64,000 nucleotides of DNA, taken from contig NZ_KB898710.1 in the NCBI RefSeq assembly GCF_000377745.1, positions 103,059 to 167,058 of the forward strand, read 5' to 3'. Below the pieces are notes generated by a model. It did no database searches. It was given only the letters and a program-made list of their open reading frames with translations, and was not told the DNA's origin. Numbering within the stretch: position 1 is the stretch's first letter; each line of letters begins with the position of its first letter. Source of the DNA: Gilvimarinus chinensis DSM 19667 (GTDB lineage Bacteria > Pseudomonadota > Gammaproteobacteria > Pseudomonadales > Cellvibrionaceae). Shown one piece after another: positions 24,527 to 50,463 of this stretch. A program made the translations under genes and the position numbers.

Positions 24527-24997
24527 GGTGATGAGCAGTTTTTATCTTTGTGAGAGCAGAAAATCTAAATGGCAATGCGGATCACTATACAGAATTTGCA
24601 GGGTAATGGAGTCCTGCTAGCAAAACTTAATATCACTGCCTGTATGGGCTGTTTGCAAACAAGGTTTGCTGGTTACGCGCGGTGCGATTCGCCCTTGGCA
24701 AGCGATGGTGTAATTTCAATTGCGCCTTAACGAATACCGTTTTAATTTCCGGTAATTATCAAAGGTAAAAGCAAGTCACGTTTTTTGTGATTCGTTTTGT
24801 GTGCAGAGCGGTGAGATGGTAATTCTACCTATCCCTCTGACAACGTTGTCTTTTTTTGGGGGAGGGGCTCGCTGGGTAAGCCTCGGGCGTGCAGCTTTTT
24901 TAGCAAGGTGAATCGATAGGGAAGCGATGAGTGAGAGTACAACAATAAAACGCCACTGAAACCTGTTGCAGTGGTGGTAACCGATGAGGACATTTGA
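24527..24997. other. Intergenic region with the chitinase control region
   Basis: 471 bases without a convincing gene, between two divergent genes. It holds the operator-like palindrome at 24838-24851 and a small inverted repeat CCACTG (24953-24958) / CAGTGG (24969-24974) in the leader of the chitinase transcript. I see no clear TATAAT box for the chitinase; CTGACA at 24837-24842 could be the -35 element overlapping the palindrome. Confidence 0.6.
24838..24851. promoter_or_regulatory. NagR-like (LacI family) operator upstream of the chitinase
   Basis: TGACAACGTTGTCT contains a perfect 12-bp palindrome GACAACGTTGTC with the central CG typical of LacI-family operators. It matches the core of the NagR motif I recall from Shewanella/Xanthomonas (AATGACARCGYTGTCATT), used for GlcNAc and chitin genes. 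It lies 147 bases upstream of the chitinase ATG. The same 14 bases recur at 42819-42832. Confidence 0.65.
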
Positions 24998-26572
24998 ATG
25001 AAAAAGACATTATTTCTGAGTGCTGGTTTGCTCAGTTCTGCGTTTTATACAGGCGCGGTTCAAGCTTACGATTGCAGTAATTTAACCGGTTGGAATTCGG
25101 CTAATGCCTACCAGGGTGGAGATCAGGTGCAGGATGAAGGCATTGCTTACGAGGCCAAGTGGTGGACCCGCGATGACAAGCCTGCCCAGCATTCTGGCCC
25201 CTGGGACGAATGGTTACAGCTAGGTGTGTGCGGGGGCAGCTCGTCCAGCAGCTCGAGTTCGTCCGTTAGCTCGTCCAGCTCGGTTTCTTCAAGTTCAACC
25301 TCTTCAAGCTCTAGCACCTCGTCTCTGCCTGCGGATGATTGTACATCGCCGGTTTACAGTGCGGGTACCAGTTATGCCGCGGGACAGTTAGTACAGAATG
25401 CTGGCGACGAGTATCGCTGCGACATCAGCGGTTGGTGTTCGTCTAATGCCGAGTGGGCTTATGCGCCCGGCACAGGAGCCCATTGGGCCGATGCCTGGTC
25501 AGAGGTGCGCTCTTGCACCGCTTCGTCAAGCTCAAGCAGTTCTTCATCCAGCTCTTCGTCCAGCTCAAGCTCTTTGCCCGGCGGTGGCTACAGTGGCAAT
25601 TTCCCCGACCACGCGTTGGTGGGTTACTGGCATAACTTTGTCAACGGCGCCGGGTGTCCTATCGACTTGTCGGATATTCCTCCGGTATGGGATGTGATTG
25701 ATATTGCTTTTGCCGATAACGATCCGGCCAGTGATGGCACCGTACAATTTAATTTGTTCGACGGTTCTGGCACCAGTTGCCCCGGGTTAGATGCTGCGAA
25801 GTTTAAACAGGATATGGCCGACCTGCAGGCGCAGGGCAAAATTTTCGTGCTGTCTTTAGGCGGCGCCGAAGGCACCATTACCCTGAACAATGATTCGGAT
25901 GAAGCGAATTTCGTCAGCAGCCTTACTGCGCTGATTAACGAATGGGGGTTCGATGGTGTTGATATCGACTTGGAAAGCGGCTCGCAGTTAGTGCACGGTT
26001 CGCAAATTCAAGCGCGGCTGCCAGGCGCTTTGCGTCAAATTGACAGCAACGTGGGCGGTATGGCGTTAACCATGGCACCGGAGCATCCGTATGTGCAAGG
26101 CGGGCACACGGCCTACAGCGGTATCTGGGGGGCATACCTGCCCATTATTGATCAAACACGAGATTTGTTGGATCTATTACATGTACAGCTGTACAACAAC
26201 GGCGGCTTGCAAACGCCTTATGCCAGCCAGTCTTACCCGGCAGGTTCGGTGGATATGATGGTGGCTTCGGCGCGCATGTTGATCGAAGGCTTCCAAACCG
26301 CTGGCAGCTTGTACTTTGCTGGCCTCGACCCGCAGCAGGTTTCTCTGGGCTTGCCGTCAGGGCCATCATCGGCTGGCTCAGGTCAGGCGACCAATCAGGC
26401 TATTATTGATGCACTCGATTGCATCACGGCGGGGACGGCATGTGGCTCAGTGGATGCTGGGGGTGTGTACCCTGATTTTAGCGGGGTGATGACCTGGTCC
26501 ATTAACTGGGATATTCACGATGGCTATATTTTTTCTGGCCCAATTGGGGATAAGGTCCACAGCCTGCCTTAA
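24998..26572 (+). CDS. Secreted modular GH18 chitinase with two chitin-binding modules and poly-Ser linkers
   Basis: 524 residues. Signal peptide 1-23 (cleavage after VQA). CBM5/12-like module about 24-77 with AKWWT; Ser linker about 79-110. The second module, about 113-175, has YAAGQLV, GWCSSNAEWAYAPG and HWADAW, and resembles CBM73. A further Ser linker (about 177-195) precedes a GH18 catalytic domain (about 200-524). The catalytic motif DxxDxDxE is DGVDIDLE with acid/base E326; the FVLSLGGAEG strand and the C-terminal MTWSINWD are also typical. It should hydrolyse chitin outside the cell with retention through the substrate N-acetyl group. CBM5 and CBM73 modules on Ser linkers are known from Cellvibrio japonicus chitin-active enzymes. 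The gene stands alone, with its own terminator and a NagR-like operator upstream. Confidence 0.93.
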   Translation: MKKTLFLSAGLLSSAFYTGAVQAYDCSNLTGWNSANAYQGGDQVQDEGIAYEAKWWTRDDKPAQHSGPWDEWLQLGVCGGSSSSSSSSSVSSSSSVSSSSTSSSSSTSSLPADDCTSPVYSAGTSYAAGQLVQNAGDEYRCDISGWCSSNAEWAYAPGTGAHWADAWSEVRSCTASSSSSSSSSSSSSSSSSLPGGGYSGNFPDHALVGYWHNFVNGAGCPIDLSDIPPVWDVIDIAFADNDPASDGTVQFNLFDGSGTSCPGLDAAKFKQDMADLQAQGKIFVLSLGGAEGTITLNNDSDEANFVSSLTALINEWGFDGVDIDLESGSQLVHGSQIQARLPGALRQIDSNVGGMALTMAPEHPYVQGGHTAYSGIWGAYLPIIDQTRDLLDLLHVQLYNNGGLQTPYASQSYPAGSVDMMVASARMLIEGFQTAGSLYFAGLDPQQVSLGLPSGPSSAGSGQATNQAIIDALDCITAGTACGSVDAGGVYPDFSGVMTWSINWDIHDGYIFSGPIGDKVHSLP

Positions 26573-42580: not shown

Positions 42581-43033
42581 ATCTTGGCCACGTCTGGTTT
42601 TCTCTGCGTTGTATTACGTTGTTGTGATGCAACGCGATCCTCATAGGTTGTCTTGTTTTATTACATCAGTAACAGATGCTTAGCTTGTGCAAGCCAAGCC
42701 GCCTTGCTTTGGTGCGGCAGTGAAAGACGCTGCGCGTTTTCTTTTGGGGCACCGGTTACATTCTCTGCGGCAAATCAGTGCGACAACTTCTTTTTTTACC
42801 GGGATGTCAAACGTGAGTTGACAACGTTGTCTGTTCGGTAGTAAAAATAATATCTTGAAAATGTCCAATGTATGAAAATAAATATCAGGGTGTTTTCAAT
42901 ATCAGCACGTTTCCTTTTGTTACGGATAATCTGGGGTTGTGTTTATCGGTAACGAAAGCGGTAAGGGTTATCAATAAATTCAATAGTGGATCTTTCGGAG
43001 CACCGAAAACATTCGTAAAGGGGTGATGTGACT
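42581..43033. other. Intergenic region: leader and control region of the TonB receptor gene
   Basis: 453 bases without a credible gene. It contains the NagR-like palindrome and overlapping promoter at 42818-42853 and an A/T-rich leader of about 180 bases up to the receptor start. Other stretches show no clear motif. Confidence 0.55.
42818..42853 (+). promoter_or_regulatory. Promoter with NagR-like operator overlapping its -35 box
   Basis: TTGACA (42818-42823) is a perfect -35 element; TAAAAA (42842-42847) or TAATAT (42848-42853) could be the -10. The -35 lies within TGACAACGTTGTCT (42819-42832), identical to the site upstream of the chitinase. A LacI-type repressor bound here would block RNA polymerase. 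Confidence 0.65.
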
Positions 43034-46000
43034 ATGCAGTTCAGTAAAAAGCTATTAAGTCTCGCGGTTTGTACAGTGGTAACGGGCGTAACCGTGCCGA
43101 TGGTTTATGCACAAGATGCAACTGTCGACGAAGCCTTAGTGGAAGAGGTGGTTGTACGCGGGATGCGTCAGAGTATCGAAAGTGCGCAGGACATGAAGCG
43201 CTTTGCCGATACGGTTAAAGACGTTATTACAGCATCAGATATCGGTGCGCTGCCAGATAAAAGCGTGACCGAGGCGCTGCAGCGTGTACCGGGCGTAACG
43301 ATTGAACGCTTCGCCTCGTCGGATGACCCAAAACACTACGCCGATGAAGGTACCGGTGTACTGGTACGCGGTTTGGATCGGGTGCGCTCCGAAGTAAATG
43401 GTCGCGATGCCTTCAGTGCAAACCCCTATGGCGGCCTGAATTACGAAGATTTTCCGGCCGAGCTTTTGGGCGCGGTGGAAGTTGTTAAAAACCAAACCGC
43501 CGATAAAATCTCGGGCGGTATTGCCGGTACCGTCAACCTGATTTCTCGCAAACCGTTTGATTCTGACGATCAGATAATTTCCTTCACTGCCAAGGGTAAC
43601 TACGGCGATTACCGCGAAGAGTGGACGCCCTCTTTCTCTGCACTGTTTTCGGATTCCTGGGAGACCAGCGCCGGTCGTTTTGGTTTTTTAGTCTCTGGCG
43701 CATACTCTGAATATAAAACCCGTGGCGACGGTGTAGGCTTGGGTAACTTCCATTCGCGCAGCGATGAATACTATCGCGGCTCTTGGGATGAGTGGGGCAC
43801 CTTGCAAGGCGCGCCGGGTAAAGTTGAAGGTTATTACGACGGACCCTGTGTACCTAACGCCCTGGGTTGGATGCCCGAGTGTGATGGTGTGCCGGCCGAC
43901 TTGATTACCGCCGAAACGGCCGAAGCGCCACCGGTTGATGGTGACCCCCTGCCAGGCCAACCCGCTGGTGAAGTGTGGTATGTGCCGGCAAACTACCATC
44001 TCAGTACCGCGGAAAATGACCGTGAGCGTCAGGGTTTGACGGCGTCTTTGCAGTGGGCTAATAACGATGAAACCATTGTTACTACCTTAGAGCACATCAG
44101 CTCTGAAGCTTCCCTGGAGTGGCGCGAGCGGGTTATTGCCTCGGGCGATCGCGGCTTTGTCAGCGGTACGGGTAACGCTGTGGTGTGGACGGAAGAAGAT
44201 GGCCGTCCTATCACCACCACCGAAGATGGGTTTTTGACCTCTGGGGTCGGGGCCAACGCGGATATTAACTTCCCGCTGCAGTTCCGCAGTCGCTGGAATT
44301 ACAACGAAGATACGGTGGAAGATACCTCGTTTAATGTCGAGTTAAACCCCACTACCCGTTTAAAAGTGGTACTGGATTATCAGCACGTGGATTCCACCCA
44401 GACCACTCACAACTACAACTTAACCAGTCGGGTGCGCGGCGATCTGACTGCCGAAGTGGCGCCGTTTTTCCTCGATTTGCGCGGCGATACACCAACCATT
44501 GAGTACTTAAATTCGCGCGTATCCGACCCCACTATCAATACCGTGGGCGACGCGCCCAACCCGGATTTATACCTGGGTAACGGTATGCAGCAAGAGGTGC
44601 GCTCCGACGCCTCTATGGATGCCTTTAAAATTGATCTGGAGTACACCTTTGACGGCCCGCTTACCGCCATTAAAGGCGGTGTTTACTACTCGGATAAAGA
44701 GTTGGAAATTGGCGATACCGAGTACTCTAACTGGACCGCGCTGGGTACTCCGTGGGTACAGGGTGATCGCTACAATGCTTCGCCCCAGCAACAGCCAGAT
44801 CTGTTTGAGCGGGTGAGCTTTGCCGATCACTACAATGGTGAAGTGGTGCAGGGTGAGTACAACAGCTTCCTGTTCCCGCGCATGGATTTGGTAGAGGATT
44901 TTGCCAATACTCTGCGCGATGGCTGTGGGGTGTGGAATGCTGTGGGCAATGCCAGTGATGGCAGTGGTCGCTGTGGTATTCCCTACGAAGATATGAACAA
45001 CCGGATTGACGGGCCTTTCTCGGTTTATCAATTAAGCTCGTCAGGTGAAGAGCGCACCGAGGCGTATATTCGCGGCGACTTTGAGTTCGACAATATGGCC
45101 ATGCCACTTCGAGGTAATATCGGTCTGCGCTATGTAAGTTATCAGCTTGAGTCTACCGGTTTTGAAGTGCTGCCGCCGGTGGATAAGCGCGGCACTGACT
45201 CTCTGGCCGACGTGATTGCAAACGATTATCCGGATTTGTACGCGCTGGCCGACGGCAGCGCCGAGCAGAGCACGGTACAGGGCACGGACTATGACACGGT
45301 GCTGCCAAGCTTGAACTTAAGCTTGGGGTTAACCGACGACTTGGTGCTGCGCTTTGCCGCGTCTAAGGCGCTTTACTATCCCAGCCTGCTGGACAGTCGC
45401 AACAGCATGGTGGTGAGCCTGGACTATGAAAATGTGCTGCAAGATCCATCCTCGGGCCGCGATGAAGAAACCAACCCAGTGGTGGGGCTCGAAGATATCG
45501 AAATTACAGCGGTCTCTCGCAACCCCTATCTGGAGCCGGAAGAATCCGTTAATTTGGACTTAACCTTGGAGTGGTACTTTGCTCCAGTGGGCTCGGTGAG
45601 TCTGGCATTGTTTCAGAAAGACCTGGATAACATTATCCGCAATAAGACCTTTGCCTACGAACTGGAGCACGCCGGTTACACTTATCCGGTCTCGGCCTAC
45701 GGCCCGGATAATACCGGCTCGGGTACCATTCGCGGAGCGGAATTCTCTTACCAGCAGTTCTACGACTTTTTACCCGGCGCCTGGAGTGGTTTAGGTCTGC
45801 AGTTCAACTACACCTATATCGACCAGGACGGGTTGGAAGATCCGCTGAACGAAAGCCCCGCGGATTTGATTTTCAACAACGACGGTTCTCAGGTAACGGA
45901 TAACCGCAACAGCTTCCGCGTATTTTCGGGCTTGCCGCTGCAGGGTTACTCGGATGAAAACCTGAACATTGTCGGTATGTACGAGTATGGTGATGTATCC

Positions 46001-46273
46001 TTGCGGGTTGCCTACAACTGGCGCTCAGAGTATCTGCTGACCCGTCGCGAGTCGGAAGAGTTTGTACCGGCCTACGCCGAGCCTGTGGATCACCTGGATG
46101 CGAGCTTCTACTACACCATTAACGATAACTGGAAAGTGGGTATCGAGGGTAGCAACTTGCTTAACTCGGAAACCAAAACCCAGTACCAGTTGAACCAAGA
46201 GGGTGATAAAACCCAGGCACTTAGCTTTACCACAGATCGTCGCTACGCTCTGAGTGTACGTGCCACCTTCTGA
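43034..46273 (+). CDS. TonB-dependent receptor (TIGR01782 / Xanthomonas-Caulobacter type)
   Basis: 1079 residues from ATG 43034 (GTG 43028 is the alternative; both lie behind AAGGGG). Signal peptide to about VYAQ. The N-terminus of the mature protein carries a TonB-box-like EEVVVRGMRQSIESAQ, then the plug: DTVKDVITASDIGALPDKSVTEALQRVPGVTIERF and VEVVKNQTADKISGGIAGTVNL. A long 22-strand barrel follows, ending in the outer-membrane terminal Phe (YALSVRATF). This subgroup takes up oligosaccharides in Xanthomonas, Caulobacter and Cellvibrio relatives. It is monocistronic or partly read through into the cupin gene, since a strong hairpin terminator follows. The chitinase-type operator upstream suggests a chito-oligosaccharide ligand (inference). 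Confidence 0.92.
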   Translation: MQFSKKLLSLAVCTVVTGVTVPMVYAQDATVDEALVEEVVVRGMRQSIESAQDMKRFADTVKDVITASDIGALPDKSVTEALQRVPGVTIERFASSDDPKHYADEGTGVLVRGLDRVRSEVNGRDAFSANPYGGLNYEDFPAELLGAVEVVKNQTADKISGGIAGTVNLISRKPFDSDDQIISFTAKGNYGDYREEWTPSFSALFSDSWETSAGRFGFLVSGAYSEYKTRGDGVGLGNFHSRSDEYYRGSWDEWGTLQGAPGKVEGYYDGPCVPNALGWMPECDGVPADLITAETAEAPPVDGDPLPGQPAGEVWYVPANYHLSTAENDRERQGLTASLQWANNDETIVTTLEHISSEASLEWRERVIASGDRGFVSGTGNAVVWTEEDGRPITTTEDGFLTSGVGANADINFPLQFRSRWNYNEDTVEDTSFNVELNPTTRLKVVLDYQHVDSTQTTHNYNLTSRVRGDLTAEVAPFFLDLRGDTPTIEYLNSRVSDPTINTVGDAPNPDLYLGNGMQQEVRSDASMDAFKIDLEYTFDGPLTAIKGGVYYSDKELEIGDTEYSNWTALGTPWVQGDRYNASPQQQPDLFERVSFADHYNGEVVQGEYNSFLFPRMDLVEDFANTLRDGCGVWNAVGNASDGSGRCGIPYEDMNNRIDGPFSVYQLSSSGEERTEAYIRGDFEFDNMAMPLRGNIGLRYVSYQLESTGFEVLPPVDKRGTDSLADVIANDYPDLYALADGSAEQSTVQGTDYDTVLPSLNLSLGLTDDLVLRFAASKALYYPSLLDSRNSMVVSLDYENVLQDPSSGRDEETNPVVGLEDIEITAVSRNPYLEPEESVNLDLTLEWYFAPVGSVSLALFQKDLDNIIRNKTFAYELEHAGYTYPVSAYGPDNTGSGTIRGAEFSYQQFYDFLPGAWSGLGLQFNYTYIDQDGLEDPLNESPADLIFNNDGSQVTDNRNSFRVFSGLPLQGYSDENLNIVGMYEYGDVSLRVAYNWRSEYLLTRRESEEFVPAYAEPVDHLDASFYYTINDNWKVGIEGSNLLNSETKTQYQLNQEGDKTQALSFTTDRRYALSVRATF

Positions 46274-46298
46274 TAAGTGTGAGAAAGTGACGAAAGTG

Positions 46299-46333
46299 AA
46301 TGCGCGCGATAGCCTCTATCGCGCGCATTTTTC
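46299..46333 (+). terminator. Terminator between the receptor and the cupin gene
   Basis: A 13-bp perfect stem ATGCGCGCGATAG / CTATCGCGCGCAT with CCT loop is followed by TTTTT, 26 bases after the receptor stop. It would stop most transcripts, making receptor mRNA more abundant than the downstream genes. Confidence 0.9.
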
Positions 46334-46381
46334 GCTTAACGTGTCGCTTTTCCTACGCACATGCCGTAAAGCAATTTCGCT

Positions 46382-47398
46382 ATGCAGAAGTTTTTAAGTT
46401 TTCCCGAGTATCGTGGTGTAAGCCGCGAGCAGTTTTTTAACGACATAGTGCCGCAGCAAAAGCCAGTGGTCATTCGCGGTCTTGTGAGCGAATGGCCGCT
46501 GGTTGAGGCATCATCCCAGTCGGATGAATATTTTTGTCGTTATCTAGCGCAATTTTATCGCGGTGAGCACGTTAATGTAGTGCTCGGCCATCCCGCTATT
46601 GAGGGGCGCTTTTTCTACAACGATAATTTTGACGGCTTTAATTATATTGAGGGTGGCGAGCGGCTGGACTTGTTCTTGGGGCGACTGCTGGAGTTGGCCG
46701 ATCGCGACGTGAAACCTTCGGTGGCGGTACAGGGGGTGGCGGTGGATAAGATTCTGCCAGGGTTGTCCGCCGCCAATCAGGCCGCTTTATTCGCCGAGCC
46801 AGTGGCACCCAAGCTGTGGGTGGGCAATAAAGTGTCCGTCTCCGCGCACTATGACGGCTCCGATAACCTCGCCTGTGTCGTGGCCGGTAAACGGCGCTTT
46901 GTTTTGTTCCCTCCCGAGCAAGTGGCCAATCTGTATCCCGGGCCACTGGATTACACACCCGCCGGTGCTCCGGTGAGTTTAGTGTCGCTGCATAAGCCTG
47001 ATTTTGATCGCTACCCGCGTTATCGCGAGGCCCTAAAAAACGCCTACAGCGCAGTGCTTGAACCCGGTGATGCGATTTTTATTCCCATGCTCTGGTGGCA
47101 TCACGTGGATTCGCTGGCCGAAGTTAACGGCTTGATGAATTACTGGTGGAATGGTTCGATCGGTAAACCGCAACAAAAGCCTACGCCGTTACAAAGTTTA
47201 AATTTTGCCGCTATGGCGATGCGCGATTTAACCCCCGCGCAGCGCAACGCCTGGCGAGCCATGTTTGATCACTATTTGTTTAAACAAGGGGAAGACCCCC
47301 AGTCTTATATTCCCACCCATAAACAGGGTGTGCTGGGGGAAATGTCGCCGGAGTTCGAGCGCCAGGTTAAAAACTGGTTTATCAGCTTGTTGAAGTGA
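46382..47398 (+). CDS. Cupin_8 / JmjC-like protein (putative Fe(II)/2-oxoglutarate oxygenase)
   Basis: 338 residues. N-terminal KPVVIRGLVSEWPLVEAS is the entry strand of cupin_8 (JmjC-like) proteins. The metal site is HYD in SAHYDGSDNLACVVAGKRRFVLFPPEQ (H-x-D) and the distal His in IPMLWWHHVDSL, and the YWWNG strand closes the barrel. Such genes accompany TonB receptors and tryptophan-halogenase-like genes in glycan loci of Xanthomonas, Caulobacter and Cellvibrionales; their substrate is unknown. The next gene begins 10 bases after this stop. Confidence 0.85.
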   Translation: MQKFLSFPEYRGVSREQFFNDIVPQQKPVVIRGLVSEWPLVEASSQSDEYFCRYLAQFYRGEHVNVVLGHPAIEGRFFYNDNFDGFNYIEGGERLDLFLGRLLELADRDVKPSVAVQGVAVDKILPGLSAANQAALFAEPVAPKLWVGNKVSVSAHYDGSDNLACVVAGKRRFVLFPPEQVANLYPGPLDYTPAGAPVSLVSLHKPDFDRYPRYREALKNAYSAVLEPGDAIFIPMLWWHHVDSLAEVNGLMNYWWNGSIGKPQQKPTPLQSLNFAAMAMRDLTPAQRNAWRAMFDHYLFKQGEDPQSYIPTHKQGVLGEMSPEFERQVKNWFISLLK

Positions 47399-47408
47399 GT
47401 TGCACAGT

Positions 47409-48920
47409 ATGAAGATAAAAAAAATCGCTATTGTCGGCGGCGGTACCGCCGGTTGGCTGGCGGCGAATTATCTGGGGCTATCCGCCGGCCGCGACCCAGA
47501 GGTAGAGATCTGCCTGATCGAGTCCAAAGATGTGCCCACCATTGGCGTTGGCGAGGGCACTGTGCCCAATATACGCGCTACTTTGCAACGCTTTGGTATC
47601 GACGAGCGCGAGTTTATGGCCAAGTGTCAGGCCACCTTTAAGTTGGGTATCAAGTTTGCCAACTGGATGGATGCTGACAAGTACGGGGCGGATCATTATT
47701 ACTATCATCCGTTTGTAGCGCCTTTTCCTGTGGGGGTAGATATCAGCCACTACTGGATGCACCACCAAAAGCAAATGGTATTTTCTGAACTCTCGGCTAT
47801 GCATGCGCTGGCCGAGCACAATATAGGCCCTAAGCATTCTTCGTCGTCTCCCTACGATGGGGTGGTGCACTACGCGTATCACTTTGATGCGGGAAAGTTT
47901 GCGCAATTGCTCGCCGATAATGCCCTCACTCGCTTTGGCGTTCGTCAAAAGTTTGCAACCATCGAACAAGTGCTGTTGGACGATGATGGCAGTATTGAGC
48001 GGTTGCAGTTTGCCTCGGGCGGTGAAGAGGCGTTTGATTTTTATATCGACTGTTCAGGCTTCGCCTCGCGTTTACTGGGGCAGGCTTTGCAAGTGCCGTT
48101 TTTAGCGAAAACTGAGCAAATCCCAACGGACACGGCGTTGGCCGTACAGGTGCCGACTGAACCCAGCGATGAGGTGCAACCTTACACCACCGCTAAAGCC
48201 CACTGTGCAGGATGGGTTTGGGACATTCCCCTGCCTCATCGGCGCGGCACGGGCTTTGTGTATTCATCGTCGCACATGACTGAGTCGCAAGCCGTGGCAG
48301 AGTTTTCCCGCTACCTGGGGTTTGATGCCGAAACGGCGAATTTGCGCAAGGTACCTATGCAGGCGGGGTATCGGCAATATTTTTGGCATAAAAACTGCGC
48401 CGCGCTGGGGTTGTCCCAAGGGTTTGTTGAGCCTTTGGAGGCCACCTCGATTATGGTGACGGATTTCTGTGCGGCGCTGTTGGCGGACCATTTTCCTCGC
48501 GACACCGACGATATGTCGCTTTTATCGCGTCATTGCAACAAATGGGTGGAGTATATCTGGGAGCGCACCATCGATTTTATTCAGTTGCACTATTGTATTT
48601 CCGACCGCCGAGACTCGGATTTCTGGGTTGATTGTACCGACCACGCCAAGTTATCGGATGTGCTGGCCGAGCGATTGGCGCTGTGGAAAATTGCTTCGCC
48701 CAAACGCACCGACTTTTTTAGCACAGTGGATTTATTTAGTCAGCAAAGTTATATATACGTGCTCTACGGCATGTATTTTCCCACCCGTTTACCTGCCCTG
48801 AATCCGTCAGAAATTCCGCTGGCTGAGACGAAAATACGCGAGCACAACGCCTGGTGTGAGAAGGCGCTACAAGCGCTCAGCTCACACCGCGCCTGGTTAA
48901 ATCAACTGCACAGCCGCTAA
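47409..48920 (+). CDS. Flavin-dependent tryptophan-halogenase-like protein 1
   Basis: 503 residues from ATG 47409 (TTG 47400 also in frame). FAD-binding IAIVGGGTAGWLAANYL at the N-terminus, GVGEGTVPNIRATLQ, catalytic Lys K78 in ATFKLGIKFANW, the halogenase motif WxWxIP as GWVWDIP, and the Glu of the PrnA/RebH active site at E344 in GFVEPLEATS. The Ser following that Glu in PrnA (PLES) is Ala here, as in other TonB-receptor-linked members. It therefore has the residues for making and guiding hypohalous acid (probably with a separate flavin reductase), but the substrate is unlikely to be free Trp. It is in tandem with a second paralog. Confidence 0.88.
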   Translation: MKIKKIAIVGGGTAGWLAANYLGLSAGRDPEVEICLIESKDVPTIGVGEGTVPNIRATLQRFGIDEREFMAKCQATFKLGIKFANWMDADKYGADHYYYHPFVAPFPVGVDISHYWMHHQKQMVFSELSAMHALAEHNIGPKHSSSSPYDGVVHYAYHFDAGKFAQLLADNALTRFGVRQKFATIEQVLLDDDGSIERLQFASGGEEAFDFYIDCSGFASRLLGQALQVPFLAKTEQIPTDTALAVQVPTEPSDEVQPYTTAKAHCAGWVWDIPLPHRRGTGFVYSSSHMTESQAVAEFSRYLGFDAETANLRKVPMQAGYRQYFWHKNCAALGLSQGFVEPLEATSIMVTDFCAALLADHFPRDTDDMSLLSRHCNKWVEYIWERTIDFIQLHYCISDRRDSDFWVDCTDHAKLSDVLAERLALWKIASPKRTDFFSTVDLFSQQSYIYVLYGMYFPTRLPALNPSEIPLAETKIREHNAWCEKALQALSSHRAWLNQLHSR

Positions 48921-48948
48921 TGTCGGACAGCCTTAAAAAGAGGTACAA

Positions 48949-50463
48949 GTGGTGGGCGAATCACAAAAACCGAAAACCCTACTCATTGTTGGCGGTGGTA
49001 CTTCAGGCTGGATGGCCGCGACCTTGATGGCGTCCCGCTGGCCGGATATTAAAGTGCGTTTGCTCGAGTCTGAGAATATTGGCACGGTAGGGGTGGGCGA
49101 GGGCAGTACGCCCCATCTAAAAATTTTTTTTGATACCTTGGGAATTGCTGAGTCCGAGTGGATGCCCCGTTGCAATGCCACGTATAAAAACGGCATTTAT
49201 TTTTCCAACTGGTCATCGGTGCCGGGCTTCGAGCGTTATTTTCATCCGTTTCCAGCGCAAACCGATGATTTGACCATGCCTCTATTTTTTAAACATATTC
49301 AGGTGCGGCGCCGCGGCAGTCCGGTAACCCCTCACCCAGATCACTATTTCCTTGAGTCTTACTTAACCCGCAACAACTTAGGGCCTATAGCCGCCGAGAG
49401 TTTCCCTTTTAACATGGCTTACGGTTACCACTTTGATGCAGCACTTTTGGGCAAATTTCTGGCTGCCAAGGCAGAGGCCTTAGGGGTTGAGCGTATTGAG
49501 GGCGCTGTGAGTCAGGTGCAGCTAAACGAGGTAGGAGACATTAGCCGTTTACAGCTGGACGATGGCCGCACTGTAGCCGCTGATTTTTTTATCGACTGCA
49601 CCGGCTTTAAATCTCTGCTATTGCAGGATGCTCTGCAAGTGCCTTTTACCCGCTACCGTGACAATTTGTTTAACGATGCAGCGGTTGTATTGCCCACTGA
49701 CGCTGCGCTTGAAATCACCCCGGCCACTGAATCTATTGCCCTATCTAACGGTTGGGCTTGGCGAATTCCTCTGCGTAATCGTTGTGGCAATGGTTATGTT
49801 TACAGTTCGGCGCACTTGAGTGCAGACCAGGCTGAAACCGAATTACGCCAGCACCTCGGGCTGCAGGATGGCGTGGTTAGCGCCCGGCACTTGCAAATGA
49901 AGGTGGGGGTGGTGCAGAAGCATTGGCGCCACAACTGTGTGGCGGTAGGGCTGTCGCAGGGGTTTATCGAGCCTTTGGAAGCCACGGCTTTGGCGCTGAC
50001 GTTCAATACTATTATGCAGTTTATTAAACGTTTTGAAGACGGCGATTTTAGCGGCCGATATCAGGATGAATTTAATCGTGAGATCGGCGCAAAGTTCAGT
50101 GGTATTCGCGATTACATCGTCTGCCACTACAAGGTGAATCAGCGCACGGACACGGCTTATTGGCGTGATAATGCGGCGAATAACGCACTGTCTGACTCGT
50201 TACAGGCGGTGCTGCATCTGTGGCGCCACAGCGATAACTTTGCCGCTGATATGCGTAAGTACAACCTTGAGGGCAGCTATCAGGCAAAATCATGGGCCTG
50301 CCTGCTGGCCGGTTACGGCCTTTTCCCCGAACTGGATGCCAAGGCGAGCTTGGCCCCTGAAAACGGCCGCGGTGAAATGACCGAACTGGCAGAGTTTATT
50401 CGCCGCTGTGGCCTTAACTTTACCAACCATAATCAATTGCTTGCCGCCCATGGCGTTACCTAA
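48949..50463 (+). CDS. Flavin-dependent tryptophan-halogenase-like protein 2
   Basis: 504 residues, GTG start with AGAGG five bases upstream. Same layout as the preceding gene: LLIVGGGTSGWMAATLM, GVGEGSTPHLKIFFDTL, Lys K80 in NATYKNGIYFSNW, WxWxIP as GWAWRIP and E344 in GFIEPLEATA. It is clearly homologous but distant from its neighbour (differing in most of the substrate-side residues), so the pair likely acts on different or sequential substrates. No flavin reductase gene is in the window. The three genes 46382-50463 lie closely together and probably form one transcript. Confidence 0.88.
   Translation: MVGESQKPKTLLIVGGGTSGWMAATLMASRWPDIKVRLLESENIGTVGVGEGSTPHLKIFFDTLGIAESEWMPRCNATYKNGIYFSNWSSVPGFERYFHPFPAQTDDLTMPLFFKHIQVRRRGSPVTPHPDHYFLESYLTRNNLGPIAAESFPFNMAYGYHFDAALLGKFLAAKAEALGVERIEGAVSQVQLNEVGDISRLQLDDGRTVAADFFIDCTGFKSLLLQDALQVPFTRYRDNLFNDAAVVLPTDAALEITPATESIALSNGWAWRIPLRNRCGNGYVYSSAHLSADQAETELRQHLGLQDGVVSARHLQMKVGVVQKHWRHNCVAVGLSQGFIEPLEATALALTFNTIMQFIKRFEDGDFSGRYQDEFNREIGAKFSGIRDYIVCHYKVNQRTDTAYWRDNAANNALSDSLQAVLHLWRHSDNFAADMRKYNLEGSYQAKSWACLLAGYGLFPELDAKASLAPENGRGEMTELAEFIRRCGLNFTNHNQLLAAHGVT

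Follow-up and report, generated by a model that had tools for sequence, protein, structure and literature searches.

What could two halogenase-like flavoproteins be doing in a gene cluster that opens with an outer membrane receptor? The question is raised by a locus in a 64,000-nucleotide stretch of the Gilvimarinus chinensis DSM 19667 genome (C5:103059-167058 of 4,065,334 bases; hereafter the window, within which locus coordinates are counted). Four genes follow one another there: a TonB-dependent receptor (TBDT) of the TIGR01782 type, a cupin_8 protein and two distinct tryptophan halogenase homologues, A and B, which share 34% identity. An earlier note on this DNA had named the same set, and the open reading frames (ORFs) lie where it placed them, with family scores far over the cut-offs (Table 1). 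Since all four genes are on one strand, with gaps of 108, 1 and 28 bp, they suggest a single operon. We propose, with a probability of about 0.7, that this operon belongs to the NagR regulon of chitin and N-acetylglucosamine (GlcNAc) use and that its products, two active flavin enzymes and an FIH-like cupin, would act in the cytoplasm on a chitin-associated ligand or peptide. The parts of this proposal that can be read from the DNA itself are the operator, its distribution across the regulon, its conservation and the intact active sites predicted for the halogenases.

The regulatory part of the argument starts from a 14-bp sequence that the earlier note had seen upstream of both the locus and a chitinase gene. 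Indeed, TGACAACGTTGTCT is found exactly at 42819-42832 and 24838-24851. The palindromic 12-mer within it, GACAACGTTGTC, has 15 exact copies in the genome, against 0.24 expected from base composition and none of the reversed control; these figures, together with the enrichment at the receptors of A's relatives described below, lead us to reject a chance origin of the operator. In the genome-wide scan, which the same note had proposed, the copies fall in 13 promoter regions (the genes adjoining each site were scanned), by chitin/GlcNAc genes, TBDT operons or acs (Table 1). NagK (NF046058, 456 bits, cut-off 370), NagA (TIGR00221, 335 bits, cut-off 226) and NagB (TIGR00502, 307 bits, cut-off 237) exceed their cut-offs. 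At the nagA gene and at that for the lytic polysaccharide monooxygenase (LPMO), the operator sits among the opening codons of the longest ORF, and translation probably begins further down. A nagR-type LacI gene, also suggested as a target of search, was found at C1:733388-734407 (L050:14388-15407), directly past nagK-nagX; it is one of eight LacI genes in the genome. We regard the predicted membership of the window operon in the chitin/GlcNAc (NagR) regulon as strongly supported, and the GH18 chitinase of the window is presumably co-regulated with it. A degenerate search of the window, allowing three mismatches, gave 24 sites against a mean of 15.9, a number reached by 8 of 100 shuffles; since this is not significant, only the exact sites carry weight within the window.

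NagR is a LacI-type regulator of GlcNAc use, and TBDTs are among its targets in two Xanthomonas species (PMC5343134, in excerpt); for Shewanella, the excerpted text of PMC2996990 lists nagR, nagP, ompNag, nagK, mcpNag and nagX. The genome studied here is similar in having a LacI regulator by nagK/nagX and, under one palindrome, nagA, nagB, nagP and TBDTs. It differs from the Shewanella and Xanthomonas regulons in that three of its operator-borne TBDT operons carry genes of the halogenase family PF04820, and the window adds an FIH-like cupin. The word halogenase is absent from the main text of both papers (PMC5343134 and PMC2996990).

The operator is kept in the only other genome of the genus (G050) in our order sample of 56 genomes. 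The G050 operon is syntenic, with gene order kept from the catalase to the deaminase gene, and its products are 66% (TBDT), 60% (cupin), 55% (A) and 65% (B) identical to those of the window, the flanking enzymes reaching 65-86%. Its promoter aligns poorly otherwise, yet TTGACAACGTTGTC is intact. The G050 genome contains 18 sites of the form GACARCGYTGTC, of which 14 are the exact palindrome, against one for the reversed control. Elsewhere in the order, such sites lie just 5' of TIGR01782 TBDTs in G013 (C1:383194), G037 (C1:230656) and G026 (C1:1164191), and a large regulon of the NagR-operator kind would appear to be confined to this genus in the sample tested. The expansion of PF04820 is itself patchy: 33 of the 56 genomes have some match, and matches above 240 bits are listed for nine only (this genome, G000, with G050, G013, G047, G008, G034, G009, G037 and G010).

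A wider comparison separates A from the rest of the family. A contig profile search with seven class-2 halogenases as query confirmed at least 588 loci, the best 80 of which (the named loci, annotated with profiles that were built on proteins of this genome) are biased in favor of A's relatives. In a FastTree phylogeny of 126 halogenases, window A belongs to a fully supported 15-row clade with 14 of them (L103-L115 and L117), from Microbulbifer, Alteromonadaceae, Shewanella, Colwellia, Pseudoalteromonas, Rheinheimera, Thalassotalea, Paraglaciecola, Woeseiaceae, Cellvibrionaceae and a 3.5-kb contig binned as Bacteroidetes. A TBDT is visible in 13 of these 14 loci and in 54 of the other 66. Counting sites up to 600 bp 5' of the TBDT ORF or up to 60 bp into it, GACARCGYTGTC is present at 12 of the 13 A-clade receptors versus 3 of the 54 others (reversed control, 0 and 1); with one mismatch allowed, TGACARCGYTGTCA is present at 13/13 versus 7/54 (control, 0/13 and 1/54). 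Moreover, 10 of the 14 A-clade loci encode a LacI protein 51-58% identical to this genome's NagR, and six additionally carry GH20, nagK and nagA, a set that only L166 has among the other 66. Since operator, NagR-like LacI and nag genes recur at these loci, A is predicted to be a lasting member of the NagR regulon and not a local accident, and the regulation of its clade does look GlcNAc/chitin-specific.

For B, the tie to chitin regulation appears thinner. In the same phylogeny, window B groups with both halogenases of the main nag locus (C1:718512 and C1:720005) and with a second halogenase of a Colwellia NagR locus, which makes four sequences, and one relative, in G009, is without the operator.

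The receptors add a further element. All 13 A-clade TBDTs find their best match in this genome not in the window TBDT (112-130 bits, over partial length only) but in that at C1:715785 (400-475 bits over about 900-1000 residues). In this genome the latter is followed by two B-clade halogenases, and A stands behind an unrelated TBDT with the operator unchanged. The usual receptor partner of A is thus predicted to have been swapped in the window, with NagR control retained. Because the receptor differs and the operator is the same, what has been kept for A would be regulation by a GlcNAc/chitin signal rather than a given neighbor receptor; this weakens the idea that A modifies the adjacent receptor and favors a substrate that is present whenever the cell eats chitin. 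We also considered that each halogenase simply co-evolves with its own TBDT, which the unrelated window TBDT contradicts for A. The halogenase and TBDT trees agree in part, for one group (halogenases L025, L029, L026 and L030 with TBDTs L069, L076, L078 and L073). The window TBDT has no sequence relative in the PDB at E<=0.001.

Table 1. Features of the window locus and the operator-bearing promoter regions of the genome. Positions are those of the window unless a contig is given. GH, glycoside hydrolase family; CBM, carbohydrate-binding module; MFS, major facilitator superfamily.
Feature	Position	Strand	Basis or remark
NagR-type operator, palindrome GACAACGTTGTC	42820..42831	.	Exact match; 196 bp 5' of receptor start
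TonB-dependent receptor, TIGR01782 type, 1081 aa	43028..46273	+	585 bits vs cut-off 310; plug and barrel domains
Cupin_8/JmjC-like protein, candidate FIH-type Fe(II)/2-oxoglutarate hydroxylase	46382..47398	+	PF13621 (Cupin_8) 237.6 bits vs cut-off 27.4; H156-x-D158, H240/H241
Halogenase-like flavoprotein A, 506 aa	47400..48920	+	PF04820 (Trp_halogenase) 445 bits vs cut-off 21; motifs; AlphaFold2 model
Halogenase-like flavoprotein B, 504 aa	48949..50463	+	PF04820 436 bits vs cut-off 21; motifs
Second operator copy of the window, 5' of chitinase	24839..24850	.	Exact match
GH18 chitinase with CBM5/12	24998..26572	+	PF00704 33.9 bits (cut-off 29.6), PF02839 36.6 bits (cut-off 26.2)
Operator-bearing promoter: window TBDT operon			
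Operator-bearing promoter: window GH18			
Operator-bearing promoter: TBDT with two halogenases	C1:715465		
Operator-bearing promoter: TBDT with one halogenase	C1:721751		
Operator-bearing promoter: nagK-nagX			Two sites
Operator-bearing promoter: nagA-nagB			
Operator-bearing promoter: NagP-like MFS			
Operator-bearing promoter: chemoreceptor and GH20			Two sites
Operator-bearing promoter: LPMO10			
Operator-bearing promoter: GH18 with PKD domains			
Operator-bearing promoter: GH19			
Operator-bearing promoter: 1008-aa protein			Only CBM5/12-type domains detected
Operator-bearing promoter: acetyl-CoA synthetase (acs)			

Are the two flavoproteins likely to be enzymes? The earlier note held that both keep the catalytic Lys, the WxWxIP motif and the catalytic Glu, and these residues are in place: A has GGGTAG at 13 for flavin adenine dinucleotide (FAD), K81, WVWDIP at 272 and E347, and B has GGGTSG at 15, K80, WAWRIP at 269 and E344. 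Lys81, Trp272, Trp274 and Glu347 are invariant in 30 aligned sequences of the A/B class, which argues for catalysis in this class. The AlphaFold2 model of A (mean pLDDT 93.2 from a 30-row alignment) superposes on PDB 9lu2 with Z 50.6 and a root-mean-square deviation of 1.5 over 476 residues, followed by 9ltb (Z 49.0), 2pyx (48.8), Xcc4156 (46.2), BrvH 6frl (44.4) and the lanthipeptide halogenase MibH (40.7). A is therefore modeled with a tryptophan halogenase-type fold along its whole chain. In the free-tryptophan halogenases RebH and PrnA, a C-terminal part binds the amino-acid moiety of Trp; the sequence match of A to RebH ends at A431 of 506, whereas the structural alignment spans the chain. 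The match of B to RebH reaches B463 of 504, and the PDB chains nearest to B in sequence are tryptophan halogenases and BrvH. The QhpG model (NF049967) was tried for both proteins and rejected (22 and 37 bits, cut-off 240). The start codon of A is TTG at 47400 (alternative ATG at 47409) and that of the TBDT is GTG at 43028 (alternative ATG at 43034). ARAGORN also places a tRNA-Asp (anticodon atc) at 49933-50022, within the frame of B, which is probably a false positive.

The nearest solved relatives of the cupin are FIH, then TYW5-type C2orf60 and JMJD5. Its H156-x-D158 and H240/H241 line up with the FIH metal triad, so that it resembles the FIH/JmjC Fe(II)/2-oxoglutarate hydroxylases in the H-x-D, the distal His and the surrounding sequence, albeit aligned over residues 148-275 only. 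Since A, B and the cupin have no signal sequence by eye, they are expected to act in the cytoplasm.

A course of events consistent with these features can be sketched. NagR would repress the operon from 42820-42831 and release it on a GlcNAc-derived signal; the TBDT would then bring a chitin-associated ligand across the outer membrane. In the cytoplasm, A and B would depend on FADH2, O2 and halide, be supplied by a general flavin reductase, and introduce a halogen or a hydroxyl into an electron-rich aromatic group of the ligand or of a peptide available during growth on chitin, while the FIH-like cupin may hydroxylate the same or a related substrate. Candidate substrates would be an aromatic compound or peptide associated with chitin, or else a protein of the envelope.

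Several observations weigh against this proposal. Among the nag products, NagP (517 bits, cut-off 625) and NagX (161 bits, cut-off 480) fall below their cut-offs, and NagR itself was probably, but indirectly, identified, being picked among eight LacI genes by position and relatives. Ten other genomes of the order have a GACARCGYTGTC count not clearly over that of the reversed control, and G009 encodes a halogenase 45% identical to B in a genome that has no GACARCGYTGTC site. The window TBDT is, as judged from the matches above, not the orthologue of the TBDT that accompanies A elsewhere. In the enzymes, A and B carry Ala immediately behind the catalytic Glu, a trait of the whole set of seven class-2 paralogues of the genome to which they belong, whereas RebH and the 12 class-1 paralogues carry Ser there. 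In the cupin, Arg171, and not the adjacent Lys170, aligns with the FIH position that we take to be the Lys holding 2-oxoglutarate.

The envelope protein named among the candidate substrates is also the basis of another explanation, in which A, B and the cupin would halogenate or hydroxylate residues of a protein bound for the envelope, be it the TBDT precursor or some other, while it is still in the cytoplasm. Such enzymes usually have a TBDT beside them: it is present in 67 of the 80 named loci (61 of those 68 whose flanks are complete, the seven exceptions being L116, L118, L135, L147, L148, L167 and L176), it lies directly 5' of a cassette gene on the same strand in 62, and 19 of the 20 full-length PF04820 genes of this genome are near one. 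Moreover, FIH and JMJD5 are annotated as protein hydroxylases, the fold matches of A include MibH, and B shows a weak match to the peptidyl-Trp dihydroxylase QhpG. On the other side, no universal Trp column was found in the halogenase-linked TBDTs: the best columns reach 86%, 79% and 76% of 78 linked rows versus 47%, 20% and 27% of 15 unlinked rows, a set that includes members of other branches. Nor did a comparison of the genome's own receptors (14 linked, 15 unlinked) reveal a clear residue marking the linked ones, the best uncorrected p being 0.0002 over many columns. The TBDT beside window A is not related to the one that usually accompanies it; the usual partner, at C1:715785, also belongs to the regulon, and A could therefore act in trans. 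We consider this explanation unlikely.

We find it somewhat less likely again that the proteins are general accessories of sugar TBDTs without a halogenating role, serving either as FAD oxidoreductases or as proteins with no catalytic function. In favor of this, A/B-class members no longer have Ser next to the catalytic Glu, none of the four motifs survives in one paralogue (L043), and the family as a whole, as described below, is not restricted to chitin. Against a purely accessory role, the Lys, the Glu and the two Trp do not vary across the 30 aligned A/B-class sequences, which is unexpected for dead enzymes, and BrvH of the same family turns indole into 3-bromoindole, although the excerpted text of PMC5945002 doubts indole as its natural substrate.

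The genome has 20 full-length PF04820 genes (one, L043, degenerate), one broken gene and a remote match of 41 bits. Its TIGR01782 genes number 29, and 19 of the 20 full-length genes have one at a distance of 5 kb or less; counted as loci, 12 of 13 are that near, compared with 9.3% of the genome (binomial p 5e-12), and 14 of the 29 receptors have a halogenase-like neighbor. Beside these loci are genes for GH13 and GH15, for GH43 (accompanied by a LacI gene and a sugar transporter), for GH95, for sulfatases (two loci), for CBM6/CBM56 modules, for an aldose epimerase and for GH20; C1:185-188 kb and C2:619-630 kb showed no sugar gene among the selected neighbors that were scanned. Since 19 of the 20 genes lie by a TBDT and several are at other sugar loci, the wider family is best described as a general TBDT partner, not chitin-specific, with the A clade as the predicted NagR-associated branch. 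The chitin link drawn in the earlier note is thus strongly supported for regulation, through the operator distribution, the LacI gene and the related genomes, and is not a general rule for the halogenase family.

The weakest alternative concerns the origin of the pair. Classical tryptophan halogenases work in natural-product pathways, but that A and B come from such biosynthesis, with a coincidental operator, is highly improbable and already contradicted by the regulon evidence, namely the distribution of the 15 operator copies and their retention in G050 and the A clade, and by the finding, in line with the earlier note, of no nonribosomal peptide synthetase, polyketide synthase or RiPP-type family among the 28 window proteins scanned with Pfam (drawn from 56 listed ORFs of at least 150 aa, many overlapping real genes).

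Returning to the NagR-regulon proposal, its interest lies in the orphan indole-type flavin halogenases (BrvH, Xcc4156 and PDB entries 2PYX, 9LU2 and 9LTB), which A and B resemble in family and motifs and, as modeled for A, in fold, and from which they differ by the Ala after the catalytic Glu. Several such enzymes have been purified or crystallized with no known natural substrate; the excerpted text of PMC7336383 states the native substrates of BrvH and of three Xanthomonas (Xcc) enzymes to be unknown. One halogenase clade can now be connected with GlcNAc/chitin as its likely inducer, with a defined operator and with an operon for a receptor, which makes the substrate question testable. The four-gene unit thereby appears to give a family without assigned natural substrates a concrete biological setting, chitin use. 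Genomic context is also gained for 2PYX and 9LU2, titled by family name and organism only: 2PYX shares 96% identity over 206 residues with a halogenase of the Shewanella TBDT-halogenase-SapC-cupin-halogenase cassette L159, and 9LU2 is closest, among the named loci, to the A-clade members L113, L114, L115 and L117 (50-54% identity).

A link between tryptophan halogenases and TonB-dependent sugar uptake was not found in the excerpted texts of PMC5343134, PMC2996990, PMC1790865, PMC5945002, PMC7336383, PMC8269204, PMC11337851 and PMC3377617; in those of PMC11337851 and PMC3377617, halogenase and TonB terms are both present in other connections. The Xanthomonas NagR regulon ('nix' genes) may include genes annotated as halogenase or SapC, and we therefore do not claim that a halogenase-NagR link is absent from print.

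Cassettes of this kind recur in Proteobacteria with the TBDT first, halogenase-like genes behind it and a cupin_8 gene. Among the 80 named loci, SapC (PF07277) is present in 59, the cupin in 26 and two or more halogenases in 27, and SapC accompanies the cupin in all 26 cupin loci. The window and the corresponding G050 stretch differ in having the cupin with no SapC match; the cassette at C2:615-621 kb of this genome likewise has a cupin and no SapC match beside it. It is tempting, if doubtful, to see in these sets a cytoplasmic oxidative kit of halogenase-like flavoproteins, an FIH-like hydroxylase and often SapC, which Proteobacterial sugar regulons might deploy on a peptide or protein of TonB-dependent uptake, the window being its chitin edition. 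If true, this would supply the missing physiological role of halogenases of the BrvH/Xcc4156/2PYX type. The AlphaFold2 model of the SapC protein L060:14904-15650, made with 33 relatives, has a pLDDT of 95.9; Foldseek returned nothing for it at E<=0.001, VIA-align listed no row with Z>=2, and no PDB sequence relative was better than E 0.37, although a missing PDB match does not prove a new fold for the modeled protein.

Further genes of the family and its surroundings deserve mention. Just 5' of the NagR gene and on the same strand, L050:15577-16587 (C1) encodes an Fe-S/FAD/NAD reductase, a possible electron donor for flavoproteins. Only one full-length halogenase-like gene, C8:72362 (L062), lies more than 5 kb from any TBDT; it is divergent from a GH20 hexosaminidase gene, and no exact operator copy is present on contig C8, which carries it. 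Fragments of the broken halogenase-like gene lie at C2:623316-624046, between two TBDT-cupin-halogenase cassettes. Finally, three tandem halogenase-like genes stand behind a TBDT at C1:185333-189729 (L058), the middle one being L043 (242 bits), which lacks the FAD motif, the catalytic Lys, WxWxIP and the Glu. A trio behind a TBDT is also found in G050 (C1:828893-833281), its middle member scoring only 154 bits; if the degenerate middle paralogue is conserved, a role as a non-catalytic partner would be suggested.

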